From: Syntrophaceae bacterium
GTDB lineage: Bacteria > Desulfobacterota > Syntrophia > Syntrophales > UBA5619
Direction: 5' to 3'
Length of the DNA: 41,689 nt
Assembly: GCA_003141195.1 (NCBI GenBank)
Contig: PLLC01000061.1
Coordinates: forward strand, 22,578 to 64,266
The notes under the pieces were generated by a model. It did not search any database. It saw only the letters and a program-made list of their open reading frames with translations, and was not told the origin of the DNA. Of this stretch, positions 352 through 14,304 are shown one piece after another. Numbering within the stretch: the stretch's first letter is position 1; every line of letters starts with the position of its first letter. The translations under genes and the position numbers were made by a program.

Positions 352-369
352 AACATGACATCAGCTATG

Positions 370-1893
370 CTACGGAGCATCCAGAAAGGGGAAACTCACT
401 GAGCCGAATTCTTCGGGCTTCATGACGGCCAGTTGATCGATGACCCGTTTGCGCATTTCGGCCGCGAAGGCAACCAGGGAGCGGACTTTGGCGGCGTCCA
501 CCTTGTCAGCGGTCATGTTCGGATAAAGGAGTTTCAGCATCCCGGCCGCGGTCTTCTTGATCGCATCCTGGTTGCGGCTGGTCATGCCGCCGAAATCCGT
601 GACGGCGGCCACATGGGTTTGGAAGTTCAGCCGCCGGAGTTCGGCAAATATCTCCGCCAGATAGTCGGTCAGAAACCCGTAGCCGTCGGCGTAGTTTTCG
701 GGCATGATCTTGGGCATCTCCCAGCCAGGCACATAGGCGTGAATGCGGTCCAGAAAAGCCGCGTCCTGAAGTTCTTCAGGAAGGGGCGAAAAGAGATGTC
801 GATAGTGGTCCTTCGGCGCCACCCTTTCCATGTAGGTGTCGATGTTTCCGCCGAGCACGATGGAACACTGGGCGGAGAACTCCTGATCCCCTCTGGTAAA
901 CTTGCCGGTCTGCATGTAGTCCTTGAGGATACTCACGCTGGCATCGGCGTCTTCAAAGCGGGTATTGGCGATTTCATCGAAGAAAACGACATGCTTGAGC
1001 CCCAAGACTCCCAGTCGTCGCGTCCCTTTATTGAAGAACAAGGTTGCCGGCGTGGTTTTGCCGCCAGAGATCACGAACGACCGGTTCGACGTGTTCCGGT
1101 AGGTGTAGGTCTTCCCCGTTTCCCTCGGCCCAAGTTCAATGGCGTTGTAGTTCGATTCCACAAACGGGACCAGGCGAAGCATCATGAGCATTTTTACCCG
1201 CTGCGTGAACCGGGCGGGGTTGAAACCGATGGACTGCACGAGAAGGTCAAGCCACTCTTCATCGGTGAACAGTTCCCGCTTGCCGATGAAATCATCCAGG
1301 TTTAGACGCGTGTACTGAAGCGGCGTGAACTCACGGATGTAGAAGGGATACTTGCGAGACTTGATCTCATAGGTGGCATCGTATTCGATGAGCATTGTGC
1401 CCCATGCCCCACTCGTGAGCAGCACGTCGGCATACTCATCGAGTATTCGTTGGGCGACGCGAACCATGTTGTCACCCAGGGCCGGGACATCGGCCCAGTA
1501 GTGGTCCTTGGACTGATCTAGTCGAACGGACAACTGCCCCAGCAAGGCATACTCGCCGTTCTCCTTGATCCGACTCTTGATCAACTCCTTCTTGGCGCTA
1601 TCAGCATATCGCTCGGTCAGGATCCTGTCTATTTTCCGCTGCCCATTGACGGGGTCATGGGCATCCACGTACCGGCTGACCAGGTACTCCATCACGTATC
1701 GCGGGAACTCCTTGTAGGCTTCGTTCCATCGCGTCAACGGCTTGAGAATCACCCGGTCGGCCAGATGAGCCATAATTTTCAGGTTGAAGAGGTCTTCGGG
1801 AATCGGGGATCGTCCATCGCCCGATCCGGGACGGCCTTTTTCCGTGGCTGACTGGGAGGTGTCTTGCTTATCGGACATCGTATTCCTTTCCAT
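370..1893 (-). CDS. brxL: BrxL-like AAA+ protein (short form, no Lon-like C-terminal domain); start probably 1878 (MSDKQD)
   Basis: Walker A GPRETGKT, Walker B HVVFFDEIA, overall BrxL-like N-terminal/AAA+ layout; 507 aa ending right after the helical region. Confidence 0.75.
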   Translation of the reverse strand: MERNTMSDKQDTSQSATEKGRPGSGDGRSPIPEDLFNLKIMAHLADRVILKPLTRWNEAYKEFPRYVMEYLVSRYVDAHDPVNGQRKIDRILTERYADSAKKELIKSRIKENGEYALLGQLSVRLDQSKDHYWADVPALGDNMVRVAQRILDEYADVLLTSGAWGTMLIEYDATYEIKSRKYPFYIREFTPLQYTRLNLDDFIGKRELFTDEEWLDLLVQSIGFNPARFTQRVKMLMMLRLVPFVESNYNAIELGPRETGKTYTYRNTSNRSFVISGGKTTPATLFFNKGTRRLGVLGLKHVVFFDEIANTRFEDADASVSILKDYMQTGKFTRGDQEFSAQCSIVLGGNIDTYMERVAPKDHYRHLFSPLPEELQDAAFLDRIHAYVPGWEMPKIMPENYADGYGFLTDYLAEIFAELRRLNFQTHVAAVTDFGGMTSRNQDAIKKTAAGMLKLLYPNMTADKVDAAKVRSLVAFAAEMRKRVIDQLAVMKPEEFGSVSFPFLDAP

Positions 1894-1899
1894 GGAAAA

Positions 1900-4671
1900 T
1901 TACATATCGTCAAAACTCTTGAGGGCGTCCGCCTCAAGTCTTGTCGCCTTGGGTTTAACCCGGACGGGTATGACGACCATGCCTTCCTCAAATTCCCGTC
2001 GCTTCCCGTCCACATCCGTATAGTGGATACGGACACCCACGGATGTCACCGTGCCCTTTGGATCCACCTCGCGGGCGGCGGTTTCCCGATACCTGCCGGT
2101 CAATTGGCCGGCAATCGTCAATTTTTGACCCACGGCCAAGGTGGTCTCCTGCAACGCGACAGCCTCGCCGAGATTGTCCTGGAGCTTCACGGATAGGGAC
2201 AAATCCACATTGCCGGCATTTCGCACGACCAGGGAAACGTCGGCTACCGCGTCCTCTTCGACCACGATTTGCGTCGGCACGCTTTCCAAAACCGGTCGAG
2301 CGATCTTTCCCGCGAGCCTGCGCAGAAGGGTGCCCGGGATCACCATTTCGGCCATAGAGCAACCGCCATGGCCATATCTGGGCGATGCACGCATTCCTTC
2401 ACGCTTAAACCAGACGCTACCGACAGGCAGTTGGAACACCTCAGCGCCCGCCGTGACCGAAAGAGACGGATCGGTAACTTTCTTCTCCTGACCGCCGATA
2501 TAGCGGGGTTGGATCTTGCCGGCTTCAGCGCCGTTTACGACCGCCACGGGCAATGCCTGCGTGCGCAACAGTTCGATGAAGCCGTGATCCGATGTGAGCA
2601 ACAGGGTGTCCTCGGGGCGCACACGGACTTGGATGTCGTCGAGAATTCCTCGAACCCCCTGCGCCTTGTCTCCGATGATCGCGGCCCGAATGCGATGATT
2701 GAACGCCGCCAGATCGCCGTTGAAGTCATGGCAATCGTCGGAAACCGAATAAATCAGAACGTTCACATCCCGGACGTCCTTGTCCTTGAAACCGACCCGC
2801 ATCAGTGCCGCCGTCGTCTCGGCATCCGTCACAAACCGAAGCCGGGTCTTTGCCTCCTCCGGGGAGAGCCCGAGGTTCCTCGCCACCAGGATAGGCTCGT
2901 TTGTCGTCGGCTCTCCCTGGTTGTTCAACCCCTCGCCGGGCAGGCATCCGCCCAGCAAGCTGCTGCGGGCGTAAAGGGTGAATGTCGGCAGGACGGCGAA
3001 ATAGGGCTGAGCCTCGATCTCAAAGTGGCCGCTGAATGCCGAACGAACGACCTCGTCCCATGTGTCGTACCTCATTCCGTCGAAGATCAGTATCCAGACC
3101 CGCCCGTCCAACGACCCTAGCGCCAACCGCTTCAGGATTTCGTCCAGTTTCCGGCGAATCAACCCGGCCGCGGATCGCGGACCCTGCATGAACTTCCGGG
3201 GATTAGACCGGATCAAGTCCGCCAGGATTCGGTCTATCTCGTCCAACCTCACGCGCACGCGATCCCGCAGGGATCCCGGCGATGGGTTGGTGTCGCCCTC
3301 TTCGCCAAAGAAGCAGCGCCGACCTTGCTCGATCAGGTCCCCATCCCCACACGCCTGGAGGTCTCCCCAGGCACGCGCGACCGTCAACTCCAGTCCGTGG
3401 TGCCCCGTCTCGACGTACCATTGAAGCAAAGCCTCGGAATGCGGAAAAGCGGGAACGGGTTTTCCCAGAACGGCCTCGACATTCCGAATGCGGCGAAGGA
3501 GGTTCAGTCCCGCGTCGGCAGGTGCTCCGCCGGCCCTGACGTCGCTCAGTTGGTCCACCCACTCCATGGATGCGGGGATCGGTTGGCTGAAGAACTCCTT
3601 GAGGATGTGAAGCACATGCCGTTGCGCAATCAAGGCCACGCCGTCCGACCGCTGGATGTATGCCACGCACTGCGACCTGCTTTGTCCCGGCAACAGGCCG
3701 TCAAAGATGCGGTCCATCCGGCGAGGGGTCAAAAACCCCGCCGACAGGTCCTCGATGCGCATCCACACCTCCGCCTGACTGCGCAGCCGGGTGATGACGC
3801 GCATGGCCACCGGTTCGAGTTTGTTGATCGACATCTCGGGCGGGAACAAATGAAGCCCCATCAACTGCGTGGCGGGGTTCTGGAGCCCGTACTGTTCGGC
3901 CACGAGACGAAGTACGATGTACGAGGCCAACTCAGCCGGTGGGAGATCAAACCAATCCAGCCCGTCCATGACCTGCGGTTGTGCCGCCTCCCGCAGGATC
4001 TCGATAACCACGGGGCGATCCGCCGAAAGCGCAGGGGTCCCCAGCAGAAGCCTGAGTCCGTGTTCAACGAACGCGTCAGTTCGGGTTTCATCCGGCCAGA
4101 TATCGTGCAGGGTCAAGGCGGGATAACCGGCCAGGAGCGCCAGCGCTGCAATTTGACCGTTTCCCCAGTCATCCGGTTTCCCCCAACGCTGAACGATCTT
4201 CGCCGCCGCGGCCGGAACCACCTCAAGGCGATCCATCAGAACGTCACGGTAGCGCCGCAATGGGGTTTCGGGGAAGTTGATCCTGGGGCAGATGCGGCGG
4301 AAGAATGCGGGCAGGGACAGATCCAGAGGTTCGCTGCCTTCGTTGAGCGCCAGGATATCCGCAATCCAGGAGGCATCAATCCGAACAGCGGTCTGATTCC
4401 CGTCCACATCGGGCTTTTGCGGGCGGGCGCCAAGCACCACGACCACCGGCCCATTGCTCGCAGTCGCGCGAAACCGCATACGGAACGCCAGGTCATCGCC
4501 ACGGAATACCACCGGCCGCCACGTCCGTCCCCCGTCGTCCACGATGGCCGGCTTGCCGAGAACCCCGGCGTCGGTCAGGAGAGAATCGCTGTCTACCGCG
4601 ACCGCCATGCGGCAGTCACGAGCCCGTGCGCCGAGCCATTGCAGGAATACACTGGTGGGTGTGAGAGTCAT
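1900..4671 (-). CDS. pglZ: PglZ-domain (alkaline phosphatase superfamily) BREX-like protein with C-terminal beta-rich extension
   Basis: VWILIFDGMRYDTW, LLLTSDHGFIEL and RYGHGGCSMAEMVIPG motifs of the PglZ domain. Confidence 0.85.
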   Translation of the reverse strand: MTLTPTSVFLQWLGARARDCRMAVAVDSDSLLTDAGVLGKPAIVDDGGRTWRPVVFRGDDLAFRMRFRATASNGPVVVVLGARPQKPDVDGNQTAVRIDASWIADILALNEGSEPLDLSLPAFFRRICPRINFPETPLRRYRDVLMDRLEVVPAAAAKIVQRWGKPDDWGNGQIAALALLAGYPALTLHDIWPDETRTDAFVEHGLRLLLGTPALSADRPVVIEILREAAQPQVMDGLDWFDLPPAELASYIVLRLVAEQYGLQNPATQLMGLHLFPPEMSINKLEPVAMRVITRLRSQAEVWMRIEDLSAGFLTPRRMDRIFDGLLPGQSRSQCVAYIQRSDGVALIAQRHVLHILKEFFSQPIPASMEWVDQLSDVRAGGAPADAGLNLLRRIRNVEAVLGKPVPAFPHSEALLQWYVETGHHGLELTVARAWGDLQACGDGDLIEQGRRCFFGEEGDTNPSPGSLRDRVRVRLDEIDRILADLIRSNPRKFMQGPRSAAGLIRRKLDEILKRLALGSLDGRVWILIFDGMRYDTWDEVVRSAFSGHFEIEAQPYFAVLPTFTLYARSSLLGGCLPGEGLNNQGEPTTNEPILVARNLGLSPEEAKTRLRFVTDAETTAALMRVGFKDKDVRDVNVLIYSVSDDCHDFNGDLAAFNHRIRAAIIGDKAQGVRGILDDIQVRVRPEDTLLLTSDHGFIELLRTQALPVAVVNGAEAGKIQPRYIGGQEKKVTDPSLSVTAGAEVFQLPVGSVWFKREGMRASPRYGHGGCSMAEMVIPGTLLRRLAGKIARPVLESVPTQIVVEEDAVADVSLVVRNAGNVDLSLSVKLQDNLGEAVALQETTLAVGQKLTIAGQLTGRYRETAAREVDPKGTVTSVGVRIHYTDVDGKRREFEEGMVVIPVRVKPKATRLEADALKSFDDM

Positions 4672-4676
4672 TTGGA

Positions 4677-7574
4677 TTACAGCTCCAGCTCCAGTTGGTT
4701 CTTGCTTTCCTGTGACTTCTTGCCGGTCTTGTCCGGTTCGAATCCTTCCCGTAGCCGCGAAGAAGCCACACGAGCCTGTTTCTCCACCCGACCGAAGACG
4801 GCCGCGGGGACGCGATCACTCAACACGCCGTGGAAGAGTTGAGAGATCATCCGGTAACCGACGACCGGGTCGAAATCCCGGAGCGCGGGCAGCTCTTCAC
4901 CTTCCTGCTCTTCGACGGCTCGGCACGCCCTGAAGATCGCCTCGATCCATTCGCAGCGGTCCGTATTGCTGACTTGCCGCTTCAAACTGCCGGCCAGAAA
5001 CCGCTCCGCATCGTGGAGGACACGCAGGGTCTGACTGTCGTTCATCATCTCGCGCTCTTCTTCCGTCGGCTCGCGCCAGCGGTTGCTCTCCGCATCCTTC
5101 CAGAAGTTCTCGCGGAGCATGATCTCCAGGTCAAGTTGCTGCGACACCTCCGCCGGCAGCAACCCGGTCACCTGCATCCACAGGGGCTTCAGTTCGCCGA
5201 CCAGCAGGGGACGTACCTGGATCTTCTGGCGTAACCACTCAATCGCGCTCACTTCGTCCTTGACGGCGATCTCTTCCTGAATCAACCCGCCGTTGCTGCC
5301 GTTGCCACCGTTCACCGCCTCGCCACGCAGATACCAATGCTGTCCAACCTTTCGGAAGTATCGGGAACAAACACGCTCGATATATGGCAGGTTCAGGCGA
5401 TCCACACTTATCCCACGCGGAATAAGTACGTTCATCAACATGCTATTAATTGTGGCGGTGGTGCGGTGTTCGTCGCTGTATTTGGCAGGCTCCGCCTTGA
5501 TCCGTTCCGGTAGCGTCTGAAGGTGTTCGCGGACGGCATCGGCAACCTGGTGCTCCAAGTCATGGTCTTCGGCGCTCAACTGGGTGCGGGCCACAGCAGG
5601 CTTGTGGAGGTTGAAAACCACGTCCTTGTCCACGGTGTCCTCGCCGCGCATAACCCCGACCATTTGGTTGAAGCTCTTGTGCTCCTTGTCGAGAATCATC
5701 ATGTTCGTGATTTGAAATCCAGCATCGAGCGCGGCCTGCTTGATGTGTTCAAATAAACCAAGCTCCGGGTCGCCGTTGTTGAACTCAATCATCGCATATC
5801 TGCCAGGCTTCAGGACGCGGAACATCTCTCTGAAAGCGTTGCGCATCTTCTCCGTGTAGCTTTCGACTCCCCATTTGCGGCCATTGGACGTGATGGCCTC
5901 TTTCGGGACATCAGTCGTTCGGCCTAACCAGGCTTCCCAAAGAACGTTCAGCTCCGCATACGCAATGTTCCTCCCAAATGGTGGGTCAGCAAAGATGAAG
6001 TCGATGGACGAGTCATACAACCACGGCATTTCTTGCGCAGGCCCCGTAGTGACGAGAACGGAGCCTGCAAAAAACGAATTTGTCGAGAAGTAGCTCGTGA
6101 TGTCATCATATTTGCCTGCAAGAACCTTTAGTGGATTCATCTCCGCCTGAAAATGGGGAATGAACAGGCGCATTGCGAGGGCCTCATTGCCACGCTGACG
6201 ATAGCGCGTCATTTGCGTAAGATTTCGGGCCGATACCGCCGTGAAGAGAAACTGCAAGGCTTTCCGAACTCGTGTGTCACTTACGCTATCGAACTCTCTC
6301 CAAAGGCGAGCAGAAGCAAAGAGGTTTCGTGCCGTGTAAAGTTGGTCAACCGAGACTAGGCCGCGCTTGATGAATGGATTTCCCTGTTCGCCCGGAACCA
6401 GGGGCGTCTTAGGATACCAGTATGGAAGCTCGTGTTGGCAAATCTCTTGGACTTTTTCTCGGTCGCACATGCTCAGCTTTCGTCGCACTTTACTGAGCAT
6501 AAGACTCCCGTCTGAACGAACGCGACGACCGAGGAACTGATAGACAACCTCCGCTGGGTCGGCTCGAACGAGCGTGAGGTTATCAACCGCCCATTCTTGG
6601 CGACACTCAGGACATTGAAACTGCTCGAAGACTTTAGTAGTTTCCTTGTCCATAGCCACATCATAGAGAGCGAACTCTTGGCCACAGCCTCGCGCCACAC
6701 GTTTCTTGGATACGATGGGCTTGCCCGCGTTTTTGCCCCGTTTACTGATTTTTCCGGTGAGTTCCTCAATGGTGACGAAGCCTTCACAGCGATATACGTC
6801 CGACCAGATCGTGTATTGGATGGTGGCCGGAATACAGATCCACTCTTCAACCTGTGAAACGTCAAGGTCCTTCCACGCCTGGTCCATGGGGAGATCGGAG
6901 ATGGGATATCCAAGGCGTTGTTCCACGTCGGAACGGCTGAGCAAAGTCCAGCTCTTGGGGACCTCCGCGTCCTCCTCCAACAGGGACGTTGATGGTGCGG
7001 AATCTTGCTGGCTGTCAGGCGGGTTCTTCAACCGTGACAGAACCTCCGGGTTCGTAAGCGCGTAGTCTCCAATGGCCGGCTCGTAATGCTCGGTGCCGTA
7101 GAGCCAGTCGAATTCATCCTTGACAGCCGCCTTGATCCACTCGAACTCTTTTTTGAGGGCATTCACGTCCACGGATGTGTTATAGTTATAGGCAATGTGA
7201 CAGGCGGCAGGCGACAGATCGTTGAGGATGCAGGCGCGGGGGCCGACGCGGTCTTTGAATTCGGAGAATTGCTCCACGATGTCACCCGGTGGGTTGGCGC
7301 ACATCTGCGCCGCGACGCCCGTCATGCCCGACCCGCAAAACAGGTCGAGAACCAGATCGCCCGGTTTCGTGTAATGCAGGATGTAGGGGATAATGCTGCG
7401 GGGCGGCACCTTGGTGTGATAGGAGTGGGCGTTGTAGATGGGATCGTTTTTGCCTTCCTTGATGTCCGCTGTGAACGGCGGACGGTCGTAATCGTCCGTT
7501 GCCGGATCGTAGGGTTTGACGTGCCGTTTGAGGAACTCTTCCAGCGAGCCCTGATTTTCAAGAAAGTCCAACAT
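4677..7574 (-). CDS. DNA methyltransferase (probable N6-adenine/N4-cytosine type), BREX-like PglX position
   Basis: SAM motif DLVLDLFCGSGMTGVAAQ near N-terminus; catalytic DPPFGRNIAYAELNVLWEAW; intervening CG..F/CPEC Zn-ribbon-like segment. Confidence 0.85.
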   Translation of the reverse strand: MLDFLENQGSLEEFLKRHVKPYDPATDDYDRPPFTADIKEGKNDPIYNAHSYHTKVPPRSIIPYILHYTKPGDLVLDLFCGSGMTGVAAQMCANPPGDIVEQFSEFKDRVGPRACILNDLSPAACHIAYNYNTSVDVNALKKEFEWIKAAVKDEFDWLYGTEHYEPAIGDYALTNPEVLSRLKNPPDSQQDSAPSTSLLEEDAEVPKSWTLLSRSDVEQRLGYPISDLPMDQAWKDLDVSQVEEWICIPATIQYTIWSDVYRCEGFVTIEELTGKISKRGKNAGKPIVSKKRVARGCGQEFALYDVAMDKETTKVFEQFQCPECRQEWAVDNLTLVRADPAEVVYQFLGRRVRSDGSLMLSKVRRKLSMCDREKVQEICQHELPYWYPKTPLVPGEQGNPFIKRGLVSVDQLYTARNLFASARLWREFDSVSDTRVRKALQFLFTAVSARNLTQMTRYRQRGNEALAMRLFIPHFQAEMNPLKVLAGKYDDITSYFSTNSFFAGSVLVTTGPAQEMPWLYDSSIDFIFADPPFGRNIAYAELNVLWEAWLGRTTDVPKEAITSNGRKWGVESYTEKMRNAFREMFRVLKPGRYAMIEFNNGDPELGLFEHIKQAALDAGFQITNMMILDKEHKSFNQMVGVMRGEDTVDKDVVFNLHKPAVARTQLSAEDHDLEHQVADAVREHLQTLPERIKAEPAKYSDEHRTTATINSMLMNVLIPRGISVDRLNLPYIERVCSRYFRKVGQHWYLRGEAVNGGNGSNGGLIQEEIAVKDEVSAIEWLRQKIQVRPLLVGELKPLWMQVTGLLPAEVSQQLDLEIMLRENFWKDAESNRWREPTEEEREMMNDSQTLRVLHDAERFLAGSLKRQVSNTDRCEWIEAIFRACRAVEEQEGEELPALRDFDPVVGYRMISQLFHGVLSDRVPAAVFGRVEKQARVASSRLREGFEPDKTGKKSQESKNQLELEL

Positions 7575-7588
7575 CTTGCGCCTCAGCT

Positions 7589-8146
7589 TTACTCCTCACC
7601 CTGAGTCTGTCCCGCCGGGGAGGATGGACTGTTGGATTCGGCTTCTCCGGCCAGCCGGAGAGCTTCGCGAACAAGGGACTGCGCGATGTGGCAGCCGTGC
7701 CGAGGCAAGGCCCACAGCAGTGGACCCACCATCTCGATAAGTCCGCGGTGTTTGGCGCGCAGAAGCACCCCCACAGTGCCGAGCACCCGCACACCGAAGG
7801 CTTGGCCACACTGACGCGCCGCATGGTCATCTACCACGATTTCGCATTCCGCTTGCCGATACGCCCAGGCCAGCACCGCCGATTCCCCCGTGCCAAGGTC
7901 CCATGCGGCAATGGAGGGAGGCATCGCCGGATCGTCCCGAATGGCCGTGCGCCCCGGCCCTGCCAGCCATATTCGACCCGGATCATCAGCAGGTCCTGCC
8001 TCCACTTCCGCGGCTACGGCCGCGGGAATTATCAACACAGTCGGCAACCGGCGGAGCAGGTCGACCTGCCCCATACGAGCTAAGACGATGATGGGTGACG
8101 CGTTGACGATCCATCTACTCATCCGCCGCCTCCGCCGCCAAGTCAT
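7589..8146 (-). CDS. DUF3368 PIN-like putative toxin; start probably 8122 (MSRWIVNASPI)
   Basis: IVNASPIIVLARMGQVDLL...IIPAAVAAEV... pattern typical of DUF3368; overlaps the upstream UPF0175 gene. Confidence 0.8.
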   Translation of the reverse strand: MTWRRRRRMSRWIVNASPIIVLARMGQVDLLRRLPTVLIIPAAVAAEVEAGPADDPGRIWLAGPGRTAIRDDPAMPPSIAAWDLGTGESAVLAWAYRQAECEIVVDDHAARQCGQAFGVRVLGTVGVLLRAKHRGLIEMVGPLLWALPRHGCHIAQSLVREALRLAGEAESNSPSSPAGQTQGEE

Positions 8147-8369
8147 CGGGTGTGATCTGGAAAGGCGACACCTGGAACTCGTGCAACTTATCCAGAAATT
8201 CCCGTCTGCTCATTCCGGCCAATTCGGCGGCTTTCGATTGAGACACCCGTCCCATTTCGTACCACTTTACCACCGCCGCCAAGCGCATCTGCCGGGCGAA
8301 CTCGTCAGGACCGGCGCGAAACACGGACAAAGACTCTTCGGGAACGTCGAGTGTGATATGTACTGTCAT
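8115..8369 (-). CDS. UPF0175 family putative antitoxin
   Basis: MTVHITLDVPEESL...RLAAVVKWYEMGRVSQSKAAELAGMSRREFLDKL is a UPF0175 signature; paired with DUF3368. Confidence 0.8.
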   Translation of the reverse strand: MTVHITLDVPEESLSVFRAGPDEFARQMRLAAVVKWYEMGRVSQSKAAELAGMSRREFLDKLHEFQVSPFQITPDDLAAEAADE

Positions 8370-8413
8370 GCTAAACCTCCATGCTGTCCTGTAAACGCGA
8401 CGAGACGTCGCCT

Positions 8414-11400
8414 CTACCTTAAGAAAAACCTGATCCTCTTTTTGCCGCCGGTCTCCTGCCTGGCCTTAGCGAATGCTGCCTTGATGCGCTCTCGAACGGC
8501 TTCGAGGAAGGTGTCCACATCCTGTTCCTCGATGGCCGGTGCGTCTCCGATGATCTCCCGGACGGTGACGTCCCGCAGTTCAAGGTTGGCGTCGTACAGC
8601 AGCTTCTTGATCCGTTCGATCACCTCGGGTACGAGCACGTCGGGCAGGCGTTCCACCTGCGACGCGAGAATCACATCTAACAGCGTTCGCGCATCGTTGT
8701 CGCCGCTTTGTTCCAGAACCTTGCGCACAACGCCCTGGGCAACGCGGTCGCTGAGATCGGATACGGCCTTCTCAGCGCGCTTGACGAAGACATGAACCTC
8801 TTGTTCGGGCACATGGCCCTTGCCGGCGAACCGGCAAAGCGGGCAGACGGGATTCTGGTCAACCTTGGCGTAATCCTTGTCGGGACATACGGATAGACGG
8901 TCGAGCATGGCGTGGTACTCCAACCGCAGCGCGCCTTCGACGGTGGCGCCAAGCTCCAACTGGTTCAGCCGCTCGACGGCCAGCACTTTGCGTTCATGGG
9001 TCTGGAAGTTCGCGCGAAGGTCGGAAATCTGCTCATGATGCGCCCGATGAGTTTTGTGGTAGGCCTGCTGATAGCGATCCGCAAAGTCGTGGAACTGTTC
9101 AATAAGCGCGAGGATCTTCTGGGGGTTCTGGATCAAGCCGTCGAATGTGAGCTGACCGGAGAGGGTCATTTGGCGAACCGCAAGGTCGTTGTCCTCAAGA
9201 TCGGCCGCACCCTGCAGGTACGCCTTGATATGCTGAAGCTGCGACAGCTCCTCACACGCTTTGATCAGGTTACCGAACCGGCTGAATGCTTCCTTGAACG
9301 CCTCCGGCGAGGAGTAGGATTCCCGGACGGTGGCCCCAAACTCATTGAAGTCGTTGGCGGCGGCCACGAAATCCAGGCGCTGAAGCAGTTCCAGCATTTC
9401 GCTTGTGACTTTACCGCTCAGCAGTTGCGCAAGGGTCGGCAATGCGTTTCGGGTCTCGGCGATACGCTCGGCCAAAGTTTTCAGCAAACGAGCGAGTTCC
9501 TCGTTCCGGGCGTCTTCCTCCTCGGGCAATGCCACCGGTTTCAGCGTCTCGTTCAGAACGCGGGCGTAGGGAAGAATGTCGTTCCAGCCCTTTTGGGAGG
9601 ACTTCACGAGGCGCGCCCCGAGCAGGGCCTTATCCAGCTTGGCGTTCCAGTCCATCAGACCGAGAACCCGGCTTTTGAGGCGGTCGCCGCTTAAAGCCTT
9701 GCCGTTGTTGAGCATCAGCCCGTGATTCGGTTTGATGGATAGTTCGCAGCCTCCCATCTTCACCATGCCGAAGAGGTAGAGCATGACCATCTGGTCGGTG
9801 AGGGCGTGCGGTGCGCGACAAAACGTGGTCTTGACGTCGGCAACTGGAACATCGGGCTCGGGTCCGACGTACTCCCTGATCCGAGCGATCGCCAGACACT
9901 CCTCGGCCTTGAACTCGCCGGGATGGGATTTGGAGACGAGGCCGAGGCCGGCCGCAAAGTTCGTGACCGCGTCCTTCTCGGCGTTGGCCGGGTCCTTGTG
10001 AAACAGACCGGCGAAAACCTTGCGGGCATCATTGTCCGTGAAGACTTTTTTGAGGTGCTTGGGGGCAAACAGCGGGTTGTCATAGGCCTTCTCAAGCAGG
10101 CGGGCGCCGAGAGCATCTTCCCGGTCTTTGAGGTTGCCGAAAACCTCGATGGCCGGAATCCCGTAGCCTTTCTGAGAGAGAACCTTGCCCCGTCTGAACT
10201 CGTCCAACTGACATTTCAGGATCGCTTTGACAGCCTCCTTGCGGCGGCTTTCGGCGTAATCGCGAAGTCCGGCTTGGTTGGGGGCGGTGAAATTCCGCTT
10301 CATCTGCTCCGCGGCCAGGATGTCGGCCAGGCCCTCGCGGGTTTCGTCGCTCAAGGGAGCCGGACGGCAGACGGCAATCCGCGCGTCCTTCAACTGGCTT
10401 CCGATTTGTTCATCGGAGACTTCGGGCGCATGGATCAGATAGACCAGCCGGAAATGCTGATCGGGATTCTCAATCTCCTTGCCGAATTCCTCTCGCCAGC
10501 GGTCCGACACGGCAATTTCACCGCCGTACTGGACCTTGTGAACCCGGGACGTGGATGACGCGACGCGGTGGGGCAATGCGTAGAGGGGCGGCGCGTTATC
10601 CTGTCGTTGTTTGGCGGTGCGATGATCGGGCGGCTGAAAATCGGACAGCAGACCGCCGTCCATGTGCAGGACCATCTGGGCTTCCTGGGTCATGTCGGGC
10701 AACTGCCAAAACAGGCTCTCCAGCCATTTGTCGTTCTGGGCCTTGGCGTCTTCCTTGGCCTTCTTCTTGAGCGGGCCGAAGTATTTGACGGGGTTGGCCT
10801 GCGCCGCGGAAAGCTCGTAGGAGAAGATCGACACCGTCTTGCCTTCGCGGGACTTTTTCTCCTCCCGCACGGGGAAGCCATTCTGGATCATCTTTTCAAA
10901 AAGATATTCGGTCTGGGCTTTTGCCCCAACGGCGTCATCGGCCAGCCAGGCCGCCTCCGCAACCTCTCGCGACGTCAGACCATCCCTCAGGTTGTCAGGC
11001 AGGCTGACGGCCCAGAGAAACAGGGTCTGCAAGAGGCGCCGGGCCTGGCCCCGCTCTTCCGGCGAGACATCGAGCGTGGGGAGCAGTTCGAATGTGTCGT
11101 GCAGGTTCTGGAAGACGTCTTTGTATCCTTCGGAGCGGGGCATCTTTTGCAGTTCATCAGTATTGAAGAGATCGGGAATCGCCACCAGACGGGCGCCGTT
11201 CTGGAATGCAGGTTCCGAGAGCACCTGCCAGCCCATGCGAATGGCGGAACGGGCGGTGGGTAGATTGTGTTTTTCGGCATTCTGCGTGATGCGCCGCATG
11301 ACCTCGAAGCAGCGGGGTTGGAACGGAAATGTTGCCTTGAAATCCGATTGGGAGATATTGGCCTGTCTGATGAAATAGTACACTTTGCGGCAGTGGTTGT

Positions 11401-12430
11401 AATAGTCCTTGATCCCGACATCGGCGCCCGGCATGAGATCGCGACAACGGAACGCGACGATTTCACCAAAGTCGCTCTTGTTCTTGTCGGCGAGCAGGTA
11501 CAGGGGGATGAATCGGTCGCCTTCCCCACCGCCGGACAGTTTCTGCGGCATGTCGCCCTGACTGGCGATTACGGTCAGGATATTGTGGTGGTTCGTCGGC
11601 AGGACATAGGCGAGGGTTTCGAGCACCTCCTCGTCCTCCGCGTAGGCGGCAGTACCCGGCACGTGGCGGTCCTGCCAAGATCGGAACTCGTCCACGACAA
11701 ACAGCAGGCCGTCGTACTCGCCGAGTTTCGTGATCTGCTCATAGATCCAAGCAAACCGTTCCTTGAACTTGCCTTTGAGTTTGCCTTGCGGAAGGCCCGA
11801 GCGAACGAGTTCGCGCCCGAACGCCTTGACCCCATTGGCCTTGCGATACTCCTCCGGCGACGCCTTGTGCTCCTTCTCGAAGAAGGACCGGGCGCCGGCC
11901 TTCTCCCAATCGGTGGACTCGGTGCGGTACCAATGGTCGGCGAGCTCTTCCGATGTGATCGGAATCTTTTCATCCAGGTCGGGCCGGATCGTCCGGAGGC
12001 TTTCCCGAATCTGTTCTTCGAAAATCCGCATGAGGCTGTCTGCGCCATCGGTCGCACCCATACCGCGGAGAGAAAACGCCACGGGGAACATTCGAACTTT
12101 GGAGAGCGGATGGGCATAGGTCTTTCGGAGATCGTCGTCCCGAACGGCGTTCCAGATCGCTTCATCACGCCAAATGAGCAGGTTGACCAGTGTGCCCAGA
12201 AAATGGGTTTTCCCGGCGCCGTACTCCGCCTGAACCCAGAAACCCTGCCCCCTGCGATGGACGGCGCATTCGAAGACCATTTGGAAATGAGCCCGCAAGG
12301 AGGGCGTGAACAGATACTCCTGAACCGTTCGCGCGGCGTTCGCATCTAAGATGATCTTGGAGAGGAGGGGCGTTGTCTCCGGCGGCTCCGGTTTTACGCA
12401 AATGATCTCTTTAAGACGCTGCAATTTCAT
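8414..12430 (-). CDS. BrxC/PglY-like (DUF6079-type) large P-loop ATPase
   Basis: Walker A AEYGAGKTHFLG, Walker B GLLFVVDEF, 1338 aa, CPLC Zn-binding-like motif near C-terminus, position in BREX-like operon. Confidence 0.75.
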   Translation of the reverse strand: MKLQRLKEIICVKPEPPETTPLLSKIILDANAARTVQEYLFTPSLRAHFQMVFECAVHRRGQGFWVQAEYGAGKTHFLGTLVNLLIWRDEAIWNAVRDDDLRKTYAHPLSKVRMFPVAFSLRGMGATDGADSLMRIFEEQIRESLRTIRPDLDEKIPITSEELADHWYRTESTDWEKAGARSFFEKEHKASPEEYRKANGVKAFGRELVRSGLPQGKLKGKFKERFAWIYEQITKLGEYDGLLFVVDEFRSWQDRHVPGTAAYAEDEEVLETLAYVLPTNHHNILTVIASQGDMPQKLSGGGEGDRFIPLYLLADKNKSDFGEIVAFRCRDLMPGADVGIKDYYNHCRKVYYFIRQANISQSDFKATFPFQPRCFEVMRRITQNAEKHNLPTARSAIRMGWQVLSEPAFQNGARLVAIPDLFNTDELQKMPRSEGYKDVFQNLHDTFELLPTLDVSPEERGQARRLLQTLFLWAVSLPDNLRDGLTSREVAEAAWLADDAVGAKAQTEYLFEKMIQNGFPVREEKKSREGKTVSIFSYELSAAQANPVKYFGPLKKKAKEDAKAQNDKWLESLFWQLPDMTQEAQMVLHMDGGLLSDFQPPDHRTAKQRQDNAPPLYALPHRVASSTSRVHKVQYGGEIAVSDRWREEFGKEIENPDQHFRLVYLIHAPEVSDEQIGSQLKDARIAVCRPAPLSDETREGLADILAAEQMKRNFTAPNQAGLRDYAESRRKEAVKAILKCQLDEFRRGKVLSQKGYGIPAIEVFGNLKDREDALGARLLEKAYDNPLFAPKHLKKVFTDNDARKVFAGLFHKDPANAEKDAVTNFAAGLGLVSKSHPGEFKAEECLAIARIREYVGPEPDVPVADVKTTFCRAPHALTDQMVMLYLFGMVKMGGCELSIKPNHGLMLNNGKALSGDRLKSRVLGLMDWNAKLDKALLGARLVKSSQKGWNDILPYARVLNETLKPVALPEEEDARNEELARLLKTLAERIAETRNALPTLAQLLSGKVTSEMLELLQRLDFVAAANDFNEFGATVRESYSSPEAFKEAFSRFGNLIKACEELSQLQHIKAYLQGAADLEDNDLAVRQMTLSGQLTFDGLIQNPQKILALIEQFHDFADRYQQAYHKTHRAHHEQISDLRANFQTHERKVLAVERLNQLELGATVEGALRLEYHAMLDRLSVCPDKDYAKVDQNPVCPLCRFAGKGHVPEQEVHVFVKRAEKAVSDLSDRVAQGVVRKVLEQSGDNDARTLLDVILASQVERLPDVLVPEVIERIKKLLYDANLELRDVTVREIIGDAPAIEEQDVDTFLEAVRERIKAAFAKARQETGGKKRIRFFLR

Positions 12431-12433
12431 GAA

Positions 12434-12904
12434 TCACCCCTTGTCTGTGATGACGCGGCTGCACATTCCAATTCCCGTGAAGTAGTCATACAACCGGTCA
12501 TCGTCAAAGACGACCGCCGATGGCCAGGTCATCTTCTCGGCGGCTCGCGAAAGTGTGATAATGACCATTCCGAAGTCGCAGCAGAACCAATCGTAGAAGC
12601 TCTTCAGGCCAAGATTATAGCGCGCCAACAGCCCGCCGGAGCGAATGACCAGAACGATTTTCGAGCGGGCAGTAGGTTGAAGTCCCTGCAGATGCTGACG
12701 CAAGGAGGTTGTCAGGCGGGCGCGGGCATCTTCGTCATTCGCCGGCAAGTTGTCCGGCTCGAAGAGATCCAGGATGTCCAGTTCTTGGGTGTTGCACAGT
12801 CTAAACGCATCCTTCAGGGCGGCATCGGAACCGAGCCAGAGGACCACATCCTTGTCCCATGTCTTCTGCCGGAGCAGGGTTTTCAGTCCCATAACGCCGT
12901 TCAT
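12434..12904 (-). CDS. small conserved BREX-associated protein of unknown family (BrxB/BrxF position)
   Basis: 156-aa ORF, ATGA overlap with upstream gene and 3-bp gap to the ATPase gene; no Walker motif visible. Confidence 0.6.
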   Translation of the reverse strand: MNGVMGLKTLLRQKTWDKDVVLWLGSDAALKDAFRLCNTQELDILDLFEPDNLPANDEDARARLTTSLRQHLQGLQPTARSKIVLVIRSGGLLARYNLGLKSFYDWFCCDFGMVIITLSRAAEKMTWPSAVVFDDDRLYDYFTGIGMCSRVITDKG

Positions 12905-13785
12905 AGTCTGGCCCTCCGCGTGAACAGGTCCCGGAGAGAGAAGCAGGTTGTCACCTGTTCCAACTGATCCGCCACAACGTATTTGCCGAGGAGACGAGCG
13001 GCATCCGCTTCCCGCAGGATGGCCCTGACGGCCTGTTCGGACTTGAGGCCGAGGTGCTTCCAGAAAGGGTTGCTCAGGACAGAGGCAAGCTCGACCGTCC
13101 GAGGTCCGGTCGGGGAGAAGATCGAATGGAAAACAACCAGAAACGCCGTTTTGTCCAAGGTGATCCGGCCCAGCCGGTCGCCCTGAGACGAAGAACGGTC
13201 AAGGAAGCCAAGCTTGGCCAGATTCATCTTGAGCCGTTCGAGCGTTTTGGCGGGGGGCTGTTCGCCGAGCGCGTCACGCAAATAACGCTCGAAATAGGCC
13301 GCCGGGATCAGCATGCCTTCTTCCAGCGGGAAGAGACAGTTTTCGACGCACCTGCCGACCAGCGGTTCCGCGGTCAGATAGAGGTAACGGAGGATGTCGC
13401 GTTCAAGCTGCTCATCTTCGTAGGCCTGCCATACCTGGCGGGCCAGTCCGTCAATGCCATCCCCAAAGAACCAGAGCAGGATGGAGCGGGCATATCGTCG
13501 CCGCGTTTCGGCGCTGTTCTGACTCAACTCCTGCTGGAGCTTTTCCTGAAGTTGTTCGGTGCTGGCTGCACCCACGGCAAGCCTGACGGCAACCAATCCC
13601 TCCCGCAACAGGACATCCTGTATCGTCTTGCGTTCGCGGCGACTCCCAGTGGCCTTTGACCTGGGGGAAGGTTTCAAATCACTGCGGCCAGCCGAGCTGG
13701 ATTCATAGGACACCCCGTCCTCAAGGAGAACCATCTGCTTGTCATTCTTTTTTTGGCCACTCGTCATCAGATTCCCACGTTTCAC
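12901..13785 (-). CDS. BrxA-like (DUF1819-like?) protein, first gene of the BREX-like operon
   Basis: 294-aa helical protein with N..TRRRYARSILLWFF-type segment and winged-helix-like layout; position only suggests BrxA. Confidence 0.45.
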   Translation of the reverse strand: MKRGNLMTSGQKKNDKQMVLLEDGVSYESSSAGRSDLKPSPRSKATGSRRERKTIQDVLLREGLVAVRLAVGAASTEQLQEKLQQELSQNSAETRRRYARSILLWFFGDGIDGLARQVWQAYEDEQLERDILRYLYLTAEPLVGRCVENCLFPLEEGMLIPAAYFERYLRDALGEQPPAKTLERLKMNLAKLGFLDRSSSQGDRLGRITLDKTAFLVVFHSIFSPTGPRTVELASVLSNPFWKHLGLKSEQAVRAILREADAARLLGKYVVADQLEQVTTCFSLRDLFTRRARL

Positions 13786-13800
13786 ATTGTTTTAAAACCA

Positions 13801-14304
13801 TCACCCAAATGGCGTTTGTAAATAGCACTTCTTCAGCATGTTCTCAATAACAATCGGCTCATCGCTCATCGATCCGTAGGTGGTGAGCTCGGCCAGCACC
13901 TCCTCGGTATGCTGGTTCCAGCCGCAGATGATCAGATGATCCTTTACCTTGACTGTTTCCAAACCCCTGCCCTCCTTGATCTTTTTCTCCACGAAAATGG
14001 AAGCGATGGTGGCGGTGAACAGCGACATCATGCCGACGCCAAAGAACATCAGCACGAAACCGACGATCCTTCCGCCGATGGAAATGGGAAACCGATCCCC
14101 ATAGCCGACCGTGGCGACGGTCACCACCGCCCACCATAAACCGTCCCAGACGGAATGGATGTTGGAATCGTCCGCCTGCTGTTCGAAATAATGAACACTG
14201 ACGGAGCTGAGGAAGATGACGCTGAGCGTCATAACCGCAATCAGAACGGAGCGCTGCCTGACCAATCCTCCTAAATACTTGAGGTGCTTCATCAGCGGAG
14301 ACAT
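13801..14304 (-). pseudogene. truncated voltage-gated-type K+ channel (pore plus start of RCK/TrkA-N domain)
   Basis: Selectivity filter TVATVGYGDRFP, then VKDHLIICGWNQHTEEVLAEL (RCK start) that ends abruptly after about 30 residues. Confidence 0.75.

Follow-up and report, generated by a model that had tools for sequence, protein, structure and literature searches.

The window analysed here, the whole 41,689-nucleotide stretch of DNA from a Syntrophaceae bacterium, very likely carries an intact BREX anti-phage operon that, judged from its sequence, forms a lineage separate from the six types described so far and would be guided by methylation, with BrxL replacing BrxHII. Its eight ORFs, all open and tightly packed on the minus strand between 370 and 13785, follow the order BrxA-like, BrxF-like, BrxC, UPF0175/DUF3368, BrxXI/PglXI, PglZ and a BrxL devoid of a Lon domain (Table 1). 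Spacing is an ATGA overlap, gaps of 3 and 44 bp, a short overlap within the UPF0175/DUF3368 pair, then gaps of 14, 5 and 6 bp. A first-pass annotation, made from the letters and an ORF list, had described seven close-set minus-strand genes and a small leading gene, with ATGA overlaps or gaps of 3-44 bp, and every one of these ORFs was found where it had placed them. Scans of the ORFs against Pfam, the PADLOC protein models and NCBIfam bore out the domain names it had given (DUF6079, UPF0175, DUF3368, methyltransferase, PglZ and BrxL). Its "small helical" protein and "156-aa" protein, left nameless at that stage, are read here as BrxA-like and BrxF-like. The true start of the DUF3368 ORF is likely the internal ATG at 8122. 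The presence in one locus of PglZ and BrxC, each above its Pfam cut-off, places the operon in the BREX superfamily.

Table 1. Coordinates of the cassette and its predicted genes, in window positions
Feature	Position	Strand	Evidence
Mobile cassette, in K+ channel gene	~-13 (contig C86:22564) to 13850		Occupied versus empty site
BrxA-like, 294 aa, first gene	12901-13785	-	BLAST and family profile; without direct Pfam/PADLOC match
BrxF-like small protein, 156 aa; probable inactive STAND (BrxB/BrxF role)	12434-12904	-	Family profile and position
BrxC/PglY AAA+ ATPase, 1338 aa	8414-12430	-	Pfam DUF6079 above cut-off; PADLOC BrxC E 1.2e-8
UPF0175 antitoxin-like, 84 aa	8115-8369	-	Pfam E 5.6e-24; PADLOC PDC-S70
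DUF3368 PIN-like toxin candidate, 185 aa	7589-8146	-	Pfam E 1.4e-11; PADLOC PDC-S70 E 2.7e-50
BrxXI/PglXI N6-adenine methyltransferase (predicted), 965 aa	4677-7574	-	PADLOC PglXI E 3.9e-150; Pfam N6_N4_Mtase
PglZ, 923 aa	1900-4671	-	Pfam PglZ above cut-off
BrxL without Lon domain, 507 aa; BrxL_N and MCM-like AAA+ ATPase	370-1893	-	Pfam BrxL_ATPase E 2.2e-111, BrxL_N 2.2e-25

This grouping exceeds chance, as the same genes lie together in other genomes. Related loci were sought in the phylum and the order with PglZ, BrxL and BrxC as queries, and in IMG/VR with family alignments. Six shared core genes (BrxA, the small protein, a BrxXI-like methyltransferase, BrxC, PglZ and BrxL) occur in G382 (L019), a genome of the same taxonomic order as the window, in two loci (L020, L021) of G384, a complete one-contig genome of the phylum, and on the IMG/VR contigs L079 and L080, the BrxL of L080 running off the contig end. 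Partial or broken copies were also obtained. Genome G047 (L092) retains the end of BrxC, a PglZ split into two ORFs, and BrxL; the copy of the neighbouring species G001 (L029/L030) is near-identical to that of the window but broken across contigs; and contig C71 of the window's own genome, G000, bears a remnant (L091:8042-10806) comprising BrxA, a 159-aa protein and a BrxC cut after 502 residues. A Halorarius plasmid shares the core and has no BrxL anywhere, so not every member of the wider BrxC clade has BrxL. Co-conservation in homologous loci was the check that the first-pass annotation had proposed, and its reading of the operon as a BREX variant or sister system agrees with the outcome, since these loci keep the genes together. 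Its claim that the gene set fits no published BREX order also held, no published type of such composition being found in the literature searched. Its recurrence across several further genomes makes this combination look less like an accident than like a BREX lineage that has not been listed.

When the window methyltransferase or BrxC was used alone as query, IMG/VR gave no match; L079 and L080 came from the family alignments. A genome-contig scan with the window PglZ returned the near-identical neighbour (G001) as its sole match. HMM-based callers probably under-detect this lineage, as its BrxC and PglZ reach only marginal scores and its BrxA and BrxF none. The L079 contig, classed as viral by IMG/VR, has its BREX locus near a large serine recombinase (L079:1-1497, L079:4660-19154) and probably represents an integrative element, not a phage. 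Two further loci were noted during the searches. Contig C77 of the window's genome holds a type-3-like BREX (L028:8750-19901) with BrxC, a methyltransferase, PglZ and BrxA, the helicase position being occupied only by a 361-aa ORF without BrxHII similarity. In G499 (L093:4993-13375), a 1537-aa DUF6079 protein with a BLAST match to a PglZ (E 9e-7) has as neighbours a RecQ helicase bearing a dual-OB domain and a SEC-C protein, which is possibly another BREX-like system.

Neither the 294-aa nor the 156-aa gene product matched a family of its own in Pfam or PADLOC. BLAST identified homologues of the 294-aa protein as the product of the first gene in L019, L021, L079 and L080 (E 1e-7 to 5e-11) and in L091 (E 5e-16), and a weaker one in Halorarius, whose protein passes the Pfam BrxA cut-off (24.6 versus 23 bits) and is named BrxA by NCBI. 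The family profile of the 294-aa protein gave P 0.0085 against type-1 BrxA, P 0.087 against type-3 BrxA and P>0.5 against unrelated controls. The 156-aa protein has counterparts at the same position after BrxA in related loci, and its family profile matched type-3 BrxF with P 3.9e-4, falling to 8.6e-5 when the window group was left out, versus P of at least 0.03 for controls including type-1 BrxB. Its low-confidence predicted model alternates strands with helices. The AlphaFold models of the BrxA-like and BrxF-like proteins were of low confidence (pLDDT 45 and 54); a Foldseek structure search and profile searches of the PDB with the two families gave no match. From chained BLAST and weak profile matches, the first two genes are probably BrxA-like and BrxF-like. 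As BrxA-like and inactive-STAND (BrxB/BrxF) parts are found in every BREX type (PMC12839542), the window operon would carry a complete BREX core. The BrxA of the sister loci (L019:17642-18814, L021:466-1620, L080:4660-5880) has an additional N-terminal UPF0758/RadC-type helix-hairpin domain, absent from the window BrxA.

The window BrxC retains its Walker A (GAGKTH) and Walker B (VVDE) motifs. It had been considered DUF6079-type rather than classical BrxC, a distinction that falls away since the DUF6079 profile is the top match of all BrxC proteins (PMC12839542). In the BrxC tree, the window protein forms one clade (98/99) with those of L019, L020, L021, L079, L080 and Halorarius, apart from types 1, 3 and 4, and so lies inside neither the type-1 nor the type-3 clade; this tree and those of BrxL, the methyltransferase and PglZ contain long branches and do not include types 2, 5 and 6.

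The methyltransferase has a different affinity. Its FCGSG and DPPF motifs are intact, and it contains an internal insert in which C263, C297, C321 and C324 are conserved with type 3; an inserted recognition domain with four cysteines is the hallmark of type-3 BrxXI (PMC12839542). Pfam detected no DUF1156, in keeping with this class. No PglX-class match appeared among the PADLOC and NCBIfam matches listed, and the protein is not of the PglX/BrxX kind of type 1 (and of types 5 and 6), which has a helical domain at its N terminus and recognises its target through the C-terminal part. Its place in the tree is with type 3 (92/92), and a 100/99 split separates it from the methyltransferases of the new loci. 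When the methyltransferases of the new lineage were constrained to a single clade without Halorarius, the topology was rejected (p 1.7e-6); constrained together with Halorarius, it was not (p 0.06). The window operon is a mosaic in that its methyltransferase groups with type 3 and not with the sister loci: the phylogenies suggest that it has its own BrxC/BrxL lineage and has probably exchanged its methyltransferase with the type-3 pool. L080 holds a second BrxXI-like methyltransferase (L080:17024-19519) in the PglZ/BrxL interval, 45% identical to that of L021, as if two specificities were kept.

BrxL is a ring-shaped DNA-binding AAA+ protein. The window BrxL, whose Walker motifs are intact, matches the solved BrxL 8emc with E 3.4e-102 and ends directly after the AAA+ domain, and the same 507-aa form is found in the neighbouring species (G001). 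A Lon remnant was looked for 3′ of the gene and none was found. At E<=1e-20, BrxL occurs in 35 of 395 genomes of the phylum, the closest to that of the window being those of G382 and G384 (43-44% identity), followed by others at 40% and less. In the BrxL tree, the proteins of the window, G001 and the new loci fall into a single clade (100/99) next to type 1. Since the sister loci keep a full-length BrxL with Lon_C and a grouping with the type-4 BrxLs is rejected (p 8.7e-44), the Lon domain was lost separately in the window lineage. A short BrxL outside any BREX locus was observed on a Thermus oshimai plasmid (L065:4906-14557), with TROVE, vWA and tubulin-like genes.

The ORF list, Pfam and PADLOC revealed no helicase of BREX types 2, 3, 5 or 6 in the window operon, and thus no BrxHII, which is present in 77% of type 3 (PMC12839542). 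Types 2 and 3 are described as having no BrxL at all, so that BrxXI with BrxL, as found here, is an unlisted combination (PMC12839542). In the literature searched, the two proteins led only to that survey and to a cyanobacterial population study describing a type-1 system, and none of the type-1 and type-4 BrxL neighbourhoods examined contained a BrxXI-class methyltransferase.

PglZ has been described as a nuclease (PMC12839542, PMC12205998). The window protein contains an alkaline-phosphatase/PorX-type nuclease domain at ~520-800, and the PglZ family profile matched PorX structures with E 3.6e-26. The residues of the metal-site pattern (D531, T565, D695, H696 and H768) are invariant in five relatives, and the threonine of the LPTxT motif and H768 align with PorX T272 and H500. 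These PorX residues have been equated with T538 and H741 of type-1 PglZ, mutation of which lowers or abolishes nuclease activity (PMC12205998). The PglZ tree gave no resolution of the placement of the window protein.

An ordinary type-3 BREX that lost BrxHII and acquired a BrxL gene alongside could also account for the type-3 grouping of the methyltransferase and for the BrxF-like small protein; the window PglZ may group with type 3 as well, although a further PglZ tree was without resolution. This origin is unlikely and already disfavoured by the BrxC tree, which puts the window protein outside type 3 and with L019, L021, L079, L080 and Halorarius. The window BrxA is unlike type-3 BrxA, the set with BrxL is found repeatedly with methyltransferases of its own, and elsewhere in the window's genome lies a separate type-3-like locus, its methyltransferase 55% identical to a reference type-3 enzyme. 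A type-4-like system, suggested by the length and architecture of the window BrxL, which match those of type 4 (PMC12839542), is scarcely credible given the rejected type-4 grouping, the full-length BrxL with Lon_C in the sister loci and the lack of a PAPS reductase in the window operon according to Pfam.

Nor does a decayed or chimeric remnant, as opposed to a working system, appear at all probable, even though the window comes from a metagenome assembly, contig C71 of the same genome holds a BrxA-small protein-BrxC remnant, and in the G001 copy a Schlafen-like gene stands where the 3′ end of BrxC, the toxin-antitoxin pair and the methyltransferase would be. The eight window ORFs are open and short-spaced with intact catalytic motifs, and in L021, part of a one-contig genome, all six core genes are intact. 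We retain the reading of an intact BREX operon of a separate lineage.

The UPF0175/DUF3368 pair, recognized by PADLOC as PDC-S70, sits between BrxC and the methyltransferase and, as adjacent overlapping genes for a predicted antitoxin and a PIN-like toxin, corresponds to a candidate type II toxin-antitoxin system. Its position is occupied by other genes elsewhere. In G001, a Schlafen-AlbA/HATPase/Fic-like_C gene (L029:11722-13236) is followed directly by PglZ, this copy being either an assembly chimera or a BREX devoid of a methyltransferase. In L019, a HEPN gene separates BrxC from the methyltransferase, and a 23S-IVP gene separates it from PglZ; L020, L079 and L080 have a DUF7662 gene as accessory; the type-3 loci L096 and L101 carry an RNA-binding protein gene in the BrxC/methyltransferase interval; and a Nostoc BR operon includes an antitoxin-VapC pair. 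Interchangeable backup RNases (PIN, HEPN, Schlafen) occur in BREX operons (PMC12839542), and the varied slot genes fit this picture. The pair noticed in the first-pass annotation is one of several accessory genes near the slot rather than a defining part of the operon.

The operon lies in a mobile cassette. Homology between the window and the G001 copy is limited to 358-13850, and the similarity of the potassium-channel gene at 13801-14304 to its relatives ends at the same position 13850, after residue 157 of ~391. Intact homologues of 388-391 aa exist in three genomes of the genus, including G006, in which no cassette occupies this chromosomal site and the channel gene is intact alongside a 169-aa gene, and where the window flanks match positions 1162 and 2554. 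Comparison of the two sites indicates that a ~13.9-kb cassette replaced ~1.4 kb of chromosome, truncating the potassium-channel gene. The BREX copy of G001 sits at a different place, as that genome keeps an intact channel gene elsewhere (L111). No integrase was found within the window cassette. GC content gave no sign of a compositional island, being 0.584 in the cassette versus 0.576-0.588 in the flanks.

To our knowledge, there is no agreed mechanism of BREX restriction, and the roles of BrxL and BrxHII have been inferred from the presence of one where the other is absent. In the mechanism we propose, BrxXI, with BrxC, BrxA and BrxF, would methylate adenine at a specific site and thereby mark host DNA. 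Unmarked incoming DNA would let a BrxC-PglZ-BrxF complex engage, with assembly on BrxC and sensing via BrxA and BrxF; PglZ would nick this DNA, and BrxL would encircle it and unwind or block it, in the role of type-3 BrxHII. The UPF0175/DUF3368 pair may act as a backup RNase toxin-antitoxin, also stabilising the cassette.

A natural system joining a type-3 methyltransferase class to BrxL makes the replacement of BrxHII by BrxL directly testable, and the need for the Lon domain can be addressed in the same family, the domain being lost in the window lineage and kept in its sisters. The operon also corrects the statement that BrxL never accompanies type-3 components. On balance we lean towards a further BREX type, defined by its own BrxC lineage, a distribution in bacteria with an archaeal-plasmid relative, and a type-3-class methyltransferase joined to BrxL. 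If so, BrxL and BrxH helicases would be motors able to stand in for one another on a shared methylation-PglZ core, and methyltransferase modules would be swapped among BREX lineages.

With type-3 BREX (BrxF, BrxC, BrxXI, BrxHII, PglZ, BrxA), the window operon shares the four-cysteine-insert methyltransferase class, a BrxF-like protein, PglZ, the BrxC architecture and, with L096 and L101, the extra gene between BrxC and the methyltransferase; it differs in having BrxL for BrxHII, BrxA first rather than last, BrxC in another clade and a PglZ of 923 aa versus ~670. Like type 1 (BrxA, BrxB, BrxC, PglX, PglZ, BrxL), it begins with BrxA and a small protein and ends with PglZ and then BrxL, the latter of the same broad lineage, whereas its methyltransferase is of the type-3 class and not PglX, its BrxL lacks Lon, and its BrxC and PglZ fall outside type 1. 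The short BrxL is shared with type 4 (BrxP, BrxC, PglZ, short BrxL), which has a PAPS reductase where the window has a methyltransferase, and whose BrxL and BrxC lie in other clades. The type-2 (Pgl) genes PglW, BrxD and BrxHI are not among the ORFs of the window operon. DUF499 BREX-related systems (BR/Hma) have a methyltransferase of related architecture and, in one example (L100), internal toxin-antitoxin genes, but the window has no DUF1156 N-terminus, DUF499 ATPase or SNF2 (Swi2/Snf2) helicase. The Halorarius halobius plasmid (NZ_CP101162.1, L017) differs by its methyltransferase in first position, its lack of BrxL and a metallophosphoesterase gene after PglZ, and resembles the window in its BrxC clade, its BrxA-small protein-BrxC-PglZ order and its BrxXI-class methyltransferase.
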